From positions 1 through 38,106 of the forward strand of contig JASHPN010000399.1 of the NCBI GenBank assembly GCA_030038175.1: a stretch of DNA of 38,106 nucleotides. Direction: 5' to 3'. Origin of the DNA: Verrucomicrobiia bacterium (GTDB lineage: Bacteria; Verrucomicrobiota; Verrucomicrobiia; Limisphaerales; UBA11358). The notes below the pieces were generated by a model that was not told the DNA's origin, ran no database searches, and saw only the letters and a program-made list of their open reading frames with translations. The number at the start of each line of letters is the position of its first letter. The stretch's first letter is position 1. Of this stretch, positions 19,721 to 21,898 are shown piece by piece. A program made the position numbers and the translations under genes.

Positions 19721-19809
19721 CAGGGGTGAGGGAGAGTCGTTCAAACGAGAATCCCTTGCGTCTCATGAAAATCCTTCATTCGATCATATCTCCATTCGCA
19801 AGGGCGCCC

Positions 19810-20556
19810 ATGAAAAACTTTGAACTGATTTCGTTTGCCGGCCCGGATCTGTTGGCCAATGCCGCAGCCAGCGCGTGGCTGGATGAAATCGAAGCGGCTG
19901 CCCGCGCGGGCAAAACACATTGTGCCGCCCTGGCCGGCGGGCGCATCACGCAAAAATTTTACGTGGCCACGGCGGAAAAGGCGTCGGCCCGGAAAACCCC
20001 CTTCGGTCACGTCCATTTTTTTTGGTCGGATGAACGCTGCGTTCCGCCGTCAGACCCGGAAAGTAACTTTAAACTGGCGGCGGATCTTTTGTTTGCGCCA
20101 CTCAAAATCCCCAATGAACAAATCCATCGGATTCTCGGCGAATTGGCGCCGGAAAACGCAGTTATCCAGGCAAATAAGGATGCGCGAAGTTTTTGTCAGC
20201 CCGGTGATGAAAAAACCGACGGGGCGCCGGTTTTTGACCTGGTTTTTGGGGGTCTGGGCGAGGATGGCCATGTGGCTTCTCTCTTTCAAAATGCACGGTT
20301 TGAACCGCAGGAAAGTGCGAAATGCAATGATCCATTTTTCTTCGTGCCAAATTCTCCTAAACCGCCGCCGCGGCGGATTTCCTTGAATTACAACGCGTTT
20401 GCCGTTGCAACTCAGGTCTGGATCTTGGCATCAGGCAAGGGCAAAGAAGCTGCTCTGCAACAATCGCTCAGCGGAGAAGGAAAAACGCCACTGGGTCGGG
20501 TCATTGACAGTCGGCGGAAGACAAAAATTTTTGTGGACATACCGCTTCGGATGTAG
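19810..20556 (+). CDS. pgl: 6-phosphogluconolactonase
   Basis: 248 residues from the ATG at 19810, preceded by AGGG; the track's start at 19726 adds 28 residues that overlap repeat-flanking sequence. CAALAGGRITQKFYV, FFWSDERCVPPSDPESNFKL and DLVFGGLGEDGHVASLFQNA are the family motifs of the NagB-like fold, including the conserved DER and DGH. It hydrolyses 6-phosphogluconolactone in the oxidative pentose phosphate pathway. No zwf or gnd gene is nearby. The SIG-like C-terminal KTPLGRVIDSRRKTKIFVD is complete. Confidence 0.92.
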   Translation: MKNFELISFAGPDLLANAAASAWLDEIEAAARAGKTHCAALAGGRITQKFYVATAEKASARKTPFGHVHFFWSDERCVPPSDPESNFKLAADLLFAPLKIPNEQIHRILGELAPENAVIQANKDARSFCQPGDEKTDGAPVFDLVFGGLGEDGHVASLFQNARFEPQESAKCNDPFFFVPNSPKPPPRRISLNYNAFAVATQVWILASGKGKEAALQQSLSGEGKTPLGRVIDSRRKTKIFVDIPLRM

Positions 20557-20710
20557 TAATTAAGTAACCAGATGGTTATTAGCCATCATCGTTGGGGAGT
20601 TTGAAGGGATTTGGGACGAAATTTCGCGGTATTCGCGGTAAAAACAATTTGAAAAAAGTTTGAACCGAATGAATGTTTGTGACGTCTTAATTAGTGAACG
20701 ATTTGAATTT

Positions 20711-20866
20711 CGCTGTCCGTTTAGGGTTGGCAGAGAGGTTTTGCTCGCGGCGCGGCTCGGACAGCGACCCCCAAGTTGGTCGCGTCGCCCTTCTGAGCGC
20801 CGTAGTGACGGCGTATAAACCTCATCACTAAGAGAGGCCGGACGAAAGTCCGGCCTTTCGTTTTGT
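20711..20866 (+). ncRNA. Candidate structured RNA with four stems, ending in a terminator
   Basis: No gene lies between pgl and accA (20557-20896). From 20711 the plus strand can form CGCTGTCCG/CGGACAGCG (20711-20719 with 20758-20766), GCGACC/GGTCGC (20764-20769 with 20778-20783), CGCCG/CGGCG (20798-20802 with 20809-20813), and a final 9-base terminator stem. The first two stems share 20764-20766, so they may alternate, as in a switch. I do not recognise a known riboswitch or sRNA class. It may be an attenuating leader of accA, a free sRNA, or a dispersed repeat that happens to be structured. Confidence 0.4.
20835..20864 (+). terminator. Rho-independent terminator upstream of accA
   Basis: AGGCCGGAC (20835-20843), loop GAAA, GTCCGGCCT (20848-20856), then TTCGTTTT. 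A perfect 9-pair GC-rich stem closed by a stable GNRA-type tetraloop and followed by T-rich DNA on the plus strand. It ends transcripts coming from pgl or from the candidate RNA about 33 bases before accA begins. Confidence 0.85.
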
Positions 20867-20896
20867 CCGGAGATCGGGTATAACAACAGGAACATT

Positions 20897-21898
20897 ATGA
20901 AACATCAGCTCGATTTCGAAAAACCGATCATCGAACTGCAGAATAAACTGAATGATTTGCGGCAGCATCCCGAAAAGCATTCTTTAGGCGTCAGTTTTGA
21001 GGAGGAAATCCAGCTAATTGAGAAAAAACTGGAAGAGACGCGCCGGCACATTTTCTCCAACTTGACGCCGTGGCAGCGCGTGCAATTGGCCCGGCACCCT
21101 CACCGCCCCTACACCCTGGATTACCTCAAACTCGCCTTTTCGGATTTTCAGGAATTGCATGGCGACCGCTGTTTTGCCGAAGACCGCGCCATGGTCGGCG
21201 GGTTTGCGCGCCTCGGAGGCCATCGTGTGGCGGTGATTGGCACGCAAAAAGGCCGTGACACAAAGGAAAACATTTTGAGGAATTTCGGTTCGGCCCACCC
21301 TGAAGGATATCGCAAGGCGCTGCGTCTCATGCGCCTGGCAAACAAGTTCTCCCTCCCTATTATCACTTTGATTGACACCCCCGGGGCGTTTCCGGGAGTG
21401 GCAGCCGAAGAACGGCATGTGGCGGAGGCCATTGCGGTTAACCTGCGCGAAATGATGCTTTTGGAAGTGCCCATTATCGCCGTCGTCATCGGAGAAGGCG
21501 GAAGCGGCGGCGCCGTGGGTATCGGCGTGGCTGACCGGGTTTTGATCCTCGAAAACGCGTATTATTCGGTCATCTCGCCGGAAGGTTGCGCCGCAATTTT
21601 ATGGAAAGACCGCGCCGCCGCTCCCAAAGCCGCCGCCGCCCTCAAGATTACCGCGCGCGATTTGCATGGTCTCAAGCTCGTGGACGAAATCGTTTCCGAA
21701 CCTCCGGGCGGCGCACACACCAACCCGGCCGCCGCCGCCGAGAATTTAAAAGCGCATTGCCTGAAACATCTTGAGGAACTCCTCGCCCTGCCCGCTGCCA
21801 AACGTCTCAAACAACGGTACGAAAAGTTCCGCGCCTGCGGTCATTTTGCCGAAAAAACCAGCGTTCCGGCAGACGAAGTGCCCCAGGCAGCCGCCTGA
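20897..21898 (+). CDS. accA: Acetyl-CoA carboxylase carboxyltransferase subunit alpha
   Basis: 333 residues. [20 protein letters not shown] opens the family. [59 protein letters not shown] and [20 protein letters not shown] are the crotonase-like core, with the oxyanion-hole glycines. It transfers carboxyl from biotin to acetyl-CoA together with AccD (not in the window), giving malonyl-CoA for fatty acid synthesis. The start is supported by AGGA 6 bases before the ATG. A TATAAC box at 20879-20884 lies just after the upstream terminator, so accA probably has its own promoter. manA follows after 4 bases. Confidence 0.96.

Follow-up and report, generated by a model that had tools for sequence, protein, structure and literature searches.

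Several described RNA systems come close to the RNA presented here. RybB and MicA are sigma-E/AlgU-dependent sRNAs, short, mostly unstructured and Hfq-bound, and antisense sRNAs of the sigma-E type are usually simpler than this RNA, with seeds in open ends and not inside a double pseudoknot. The Qrr sRNAs depend on sigma-54 and Hfq, and the pseudoknotted riboswitch aptamers include preQ1-II/III, SAM-II and c-di-GMP-II. The locus compared with them lies in the window, by which we mean the whole stretch of 38,106 nucleotides that was analysed, between the genes pgl and accA. The pgl stop at 20556 and the accA ATG at 20897 indeed leave the 340 gene-free bases that a sequence-only reading of this DNA had counted; a minus-strand ORF at 20560-20895 had no Pfam match. 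On comparative sequence evidence, these bases ahead of accA encode a predicted free-standing RNA of about 155 nt with two pseudoknots. The flanking genes, the promoter elements and the RNA core were located as follows.

19726-20556, plus strand: pgl, 6-phosphogluconolactonase (PF01182, 168 bits), the usual upstream neighbour
20659-20665, plus strand: -35-like element TTTGAAC, preceded by an A-rich tract and containing the ECF/AlgU-type GAACNN
20684-20689, plus strand: -10-like element GTCTTA, from the aligned upstream regions
20706-20859, plus strand: conserved RNA core, 154 nt, covariance-model match 1-152/152
20897-21898, plus strand: accA, acetyl-CoA carboxylase subunit alpha (PF03255, 468 bits), a frequent downstream neighbour

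The stretch folded better than its own shuffles (z = -3.5, 0/200). RNAalifold, applied to the alignment, missed both pseudoknots; in its prediction, the 5' strand of P1 formed part of a weak local hairpin that showed no compensatory changes. The structure derived by hand was tested in its place. It consists of the following elements.

20710-20719, plus strand: P1 5' strand, pairing with 20758-20767 inside the P2 loop (H-type pseudoknot 1)
20720-20734, plus strand: loop L1, near-invariant (T)AGGGTTGGCANA
20735-20741, plus strand: PB 5' strand of a long-range helix with 20817-20823, which pins the two pseudoknots together
20747-20756, plus strand: P2 5' strand, pairing with 20779-20788
20758-20767, plus strand: P1 3' strand, from order-wide covariation
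20779-20788, plus strand: P2 3' strand, from order-wide covariation
20789-20797, plus strand: P2-P3 joining segment, with near-invariant TTCTGAG at 20791-20797
20798-20813, plus strand: P3 hairpin (20798-20802 / 20809-20813)
20804-20808, plus strand: PC 5' strand in the P3 loop, pairing with 20825-20829 (H-type pseudoknot 2)
20817-20823, plus strand: PB 3' strand, from order-wide covariation
20825-20829, plus strand: PC 3' strand, from order-wide covariation
20835-20856, plus strand: intrinsic terminator hairpin (20835-20843 / 20848-20856, loop GAAA)

The six helices were derived by eye from a first, structure-blind MAFFT alignment of 52 copies and then counted: 98% of the cells were paired and 27 of the 46 pairs had changed on both sides, whereas pairing fell to 31-50% when the partners were slid by one to three columns. 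Pairing was then counted order-wide, on 84 distinct sequences aligned from covariance-model matches. Here 96.5% of the cells were paired, against 33-49% in the slid controls, and compensatory changes occurred in 42 of the 46 pairs. This alignment was fitted to P2 (99.6% paired, compensatory changes in 9/10 pairs), PB (95%, 7/7), P3 (97%, 3/5) and the terminator helix (97.5%, 9/9), so that the counts for these four lean towards the structure. The aligning model did not include P1 and PC, whose covariation was therefore not built in; still, P1 was paired in 92% of the cells with compensatory changes in all ten pairs, and PC in 98.6% with changes in four of five. Since both pair although the model did not contain them, the fold is best described as two H-type pseudoknots tied by PB. 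The comparison thus shows a predicted architecture in which two H-type pseudoknots, P1/P2 and P3/PC, are joined by a pinning helix and followed by an intrinsic terminator, and which is kept across Limisphaerales.

The first stem of the sequence-only reading (20711-20719 / 20758-20766) was found again as P1 and is conserved. Its second stem, GCGACC / GGTCGC (20764-20769 / 20778-20783), does exist in the sequence, but it is not conserved: order-wide, 55% of its cells were paired, as in shuffles, and its 3' strand belongs to the fully conserved P2. The idea that the two stems compete as a switching leader did not hold up, the shared bases being the P1 3' strand beside a chance local hairpin.

Two segments stayed unpaired and nearly invariant. 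In L1, with the invariant loop sequence AGGGUUGGCA, positions G19-T23, G25, A27 and A29 were conserved to at least 95% order-wide; in the joining segment (UUCUGAG), positions 87-92 reached 98-100% and position 86 reached 75%. A complementarity between C26-G30 and U86-G90 was considered and then dropped because position 28 varies and its partner does not.

To determine the distribution, we used a covariance model restricted to the nested helices (P2, PB, P3 and terminator). It placed 20706-20859 (175.6 bits, E 5e-39 in the own genome) in an RNA family present in 144 of 293 sampled Limisphaerales genomes, 65 of 118 genera and 33 families. Within the genus, BLASTN with the stretch found it in 34 of 36 genomes, the own one included, and it also hit several other families of the order. 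Of the named records with the invariant L1 motif, almost all were metagenome-assembled genomes of Verrucomicrobia subdivision 3 / Limisphaerales, an order of soil and freshwater Verrucomicrobia. There is no credible member outside this order: samples of 388 and 384 genomes from elsewhere gave only chance-level matches of E 2.9e-4 and 8.2e-4. The family is new and previously uncatalogued. As the sequence-only reading had supposed, it falls into no named class: Rfam 15 gave no match to the window at gathering, with nothing but sub-threshold noise up to E 10, and among eight diverse members only neighbouring tRNAs were matched. Literature searches found the RNA described nowhere, the 2017 list of 224 motifs being excluded through Rfam only.

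Upstream of the RNA copies, TTGAAC and RTCT recurred at fixed spacing. TTGAAC was present in 101 of 131 aligned upstream regions (5.6 expected), and GAACNN-N16/17-TCNNA in 70 of 131 (about 0.8 expected), compared with 2 of 131 downstream control regions. The AlgU consensus is GAACTT-N16/17-TCtgA (PMC10651043); GAAC, TC and the spacing are kept in the RNA promoter, whereas the TT of GAACTT is not conserved. By this consensus match, the elements form a candidate stress-type promoter of the ECF (AlgU/sigma-E) pattern, from which the transcript would start near 20695. The own genome held six sites of TTTGAAC-N16/18-RTCTNA and the reversed control none. It encodes many sigma-70 region 4 proteins, a count that includes LuxR-type regulators; the motif was looked for before an ECF sigma gene and not found there. 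Elsewhere in this genome, the same promoter motif (GAAC/TCT) immediately precedes a transaldolase gene (L241, G000:C351:22589-22619) and also a gene resembling a polysaccharide chain-length regulator (L240, G000:C228:11600-11629); co-regulation of these two genes is possible.

At the other end, the perfect terminator with a GNRA cap noticed in the sequence-only reading is present as GGCCGGAC-GAAA-GTCCGGCC (20836-20855), with an 8-bp stem; its U-run, TTTCGTTTTG, is broken in the window. The RNA thus has what is expected of a free-standing gene, its own terminator and its own promoter, the latter at the level of sequence conservation. Together they strongly suggest transcription from an ECF-pattern promoter to a dedicated terminator, independently of pgl and accA.

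The gene neighbourhood offers an argument for a different reading, a cis-acting accA leader, riboswitch or attenuator, in which the terminator decides on read-through into accA. On the same strand, pgl lay upstream in 72 and accA downstream in 67 of the 131 copies placed, numbers that are lower bounds because some other copies lie near contig ends. The distance to accA was most often 50-90 nt, and the structured loops would suit an aptamer. The 38-nt spacer of the window (20860-20896) furthermore lacks the accA promoter motif described below, so read-through into accA may occur at this one copy. However, 64 of 131 copies had no downstream accA match, some of them near contig ends; where the downstream gene could be called, it was convergent, facing the RNA, in 38 of 61 cases, and the neighbours of copies without accA contained no large family. 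Where accA does follow, it usually has a promoter motif of its own after the terminator, TTG[AC]...TAAAAT (TTGA/TAAAAT-like), found in 42 of 67 linked loci against 2.1 expected. This motif differs from the RNA promoter and ends about 9 nt before the ATG, a position that suggests a near-leaderless accA mRNA in the relatives. We saw no conserved pairing that could act as an antiterminator by overlapping the terminator, the supposed switching stem lacks conservation, and every tandem copy has its own promoter motif and terminator. We therefore turn down the attenuation of accA put forward from the sequence and hold a leader function to be very improbable; its other suggestion, a free sRNA, gained support from the same promoter motif, terminator and tandem copies.

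The tandem arrays comprise three copies in G012 and two in G032 (L033:3115-3762, L034:3249-3641); they are flanked by a glutathione-peroxidase gene on one side and a convergent alpha/beta-hydrolase gene on the other. The own genome holds three copies in all. The second is 93% identical by BLASTN. The third (L228:2684-2818; G000:C221:22183-22317, minus strand) is strongly diverged, keeps P1, P2, PB and P3 by compensatory changes, has no terminator and follows a LuxR-type HTH gene at a distance of about 60 nt. Syntenic copies evolve slowly and extra copies are mostly on longer branches, many of them without promoter motif; in six extra copies (L028, L039, L042, L043, L044, L051) the RNA fold was intact and no promoter motif was recognisable. 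As the own genome has two further copies and a single genome may hold as many as five, a dispersed REP- or MITE-like repeat folding by chance might be considered, the very outcome, if devoid of compensatory changes, that the sequence-only reading had named as speaking against it. Yet the copies are few, synteny is kept over many families, the promoter motif is conserved, compensatory changes are abundant (42 of the 46 pairs), and the RNA occurred in none of the phages, plasmids and IMG/VR viral contigs searched. We give such a repeat next to no probability.

A trans-acting regulator is more probable than an accA switch because the RNA is free-standing, with its own promoter and terminator, order-wide. 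We consider it likely that it is a stand-alone, trans-acting structured RNA, probably ECF-sigma-driven, that presents invariant loops to a putative partner. The RNA would be produced as part of a stress response controlled by an ECF sigma factor, and it would end at its own terminator, apart from pgl and accA transcription; a rigid pseudoknot scaffold would present the single-stranded L1 and joining segment to the partner, and the RNA would act in trans. Some observations count against this stand-alone reading, namely the extra copies without promoter motif, the imperfect U-run of the window, the absence of the motif before an ECF sigma gene, and the long-lived pgl/accA synteny, a possible sign of a connection with these two genes.

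The ECF-type promoter motif, the terminator, the multiple and tandem copies and the unpaired invariant segments would also fit a trans-acting antisense sRNA that uses L1 or the joining segment as a seed for many mRNAs, as enteric sigma-E sRNAs do. Sites complementary to L1, the segment tested as seed, were however not enriched in the genome (93 with up to two mismatches, 129 in the reversed control), and Hfq was not detected, with no PF17209 match in the own, 92%-complete genome. The invariant segments moreover sit in a double pseudoknot, unlike the usual open-end seeds. An antisense function is a serious contender but, all in all, unlikely. Since no Hfq was found and L1-complementary sites were not enriched, we favour a protein over a broad antisense seed, and think that the stand-alone RNA more probably has a protein or a protein complex as its putative partner than a large set of mRNAs. 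In having two pseudoknots and loops that hardly vary, the RNA also resembles aptamer and ribozyme cores, and a free-standing ribozyme or metabolite sensor, tied to no downstream gene, would be conceivable. No known ribozyme or riboswitch family in Rfam 15 matched, no conserved cleavage context was identified, and to our knowledge free-standing RNA sensors are rare; we regard a catalytic or sensing function as quite improbable.

With the stand-alone RNA, a phylum for which our literature searches found little regulatory-RNA work gains a whole RNA family whose pseudoknotted architecture is well determined. Its promoter motif, terminator, invariant loops and covariance model offer handles for testing the ECF-sigma stress responses of these bacteria.

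Compared with the systems introduced above, the new RNA shares H-type pseudoknots and invariant loop bases with preQ1-II/III, SAM-II and c-di-GMP-II aptamers, but has no consistent downstream gene, expression platform or Rfam match. Like the Qrr sRNAs, it occurs in several copies, each tandem one with promoter and terminator, although no sequence or structural relation to Qrr was shown. With RybB and MicA it has in common the GAACNN-N16/17-TCTnA promoter pattern and an intrinsic terminator; it differs from them by its conserved double pseudoknot and by a genome in which Hfq went undetected. 6S RNA is likewise free-standing, structured, of similar length and kept at one main conserved locus, but it forms an open-centre rod without pseudoknots, whereas the new RNA has two. 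Identity with 6S RNA was rejected: the own genome has a separate 6S gene (RF00013, C187:9577-9757, 62.7 bits), the folds differ, and neither sequence nor structure matched. Tentatively, and with more doubt than confidence, one may go further and see here a new, order-wide class of bacterial regulatory RNA that binds a specific protein or ligand through its pinned double-pseudoknot core and executes an ECF-sigma stress response, apparently without Hfq. If this were true, its role would be comparable in weight to that of 6S or CsrB RNA, with an unrelated fold.
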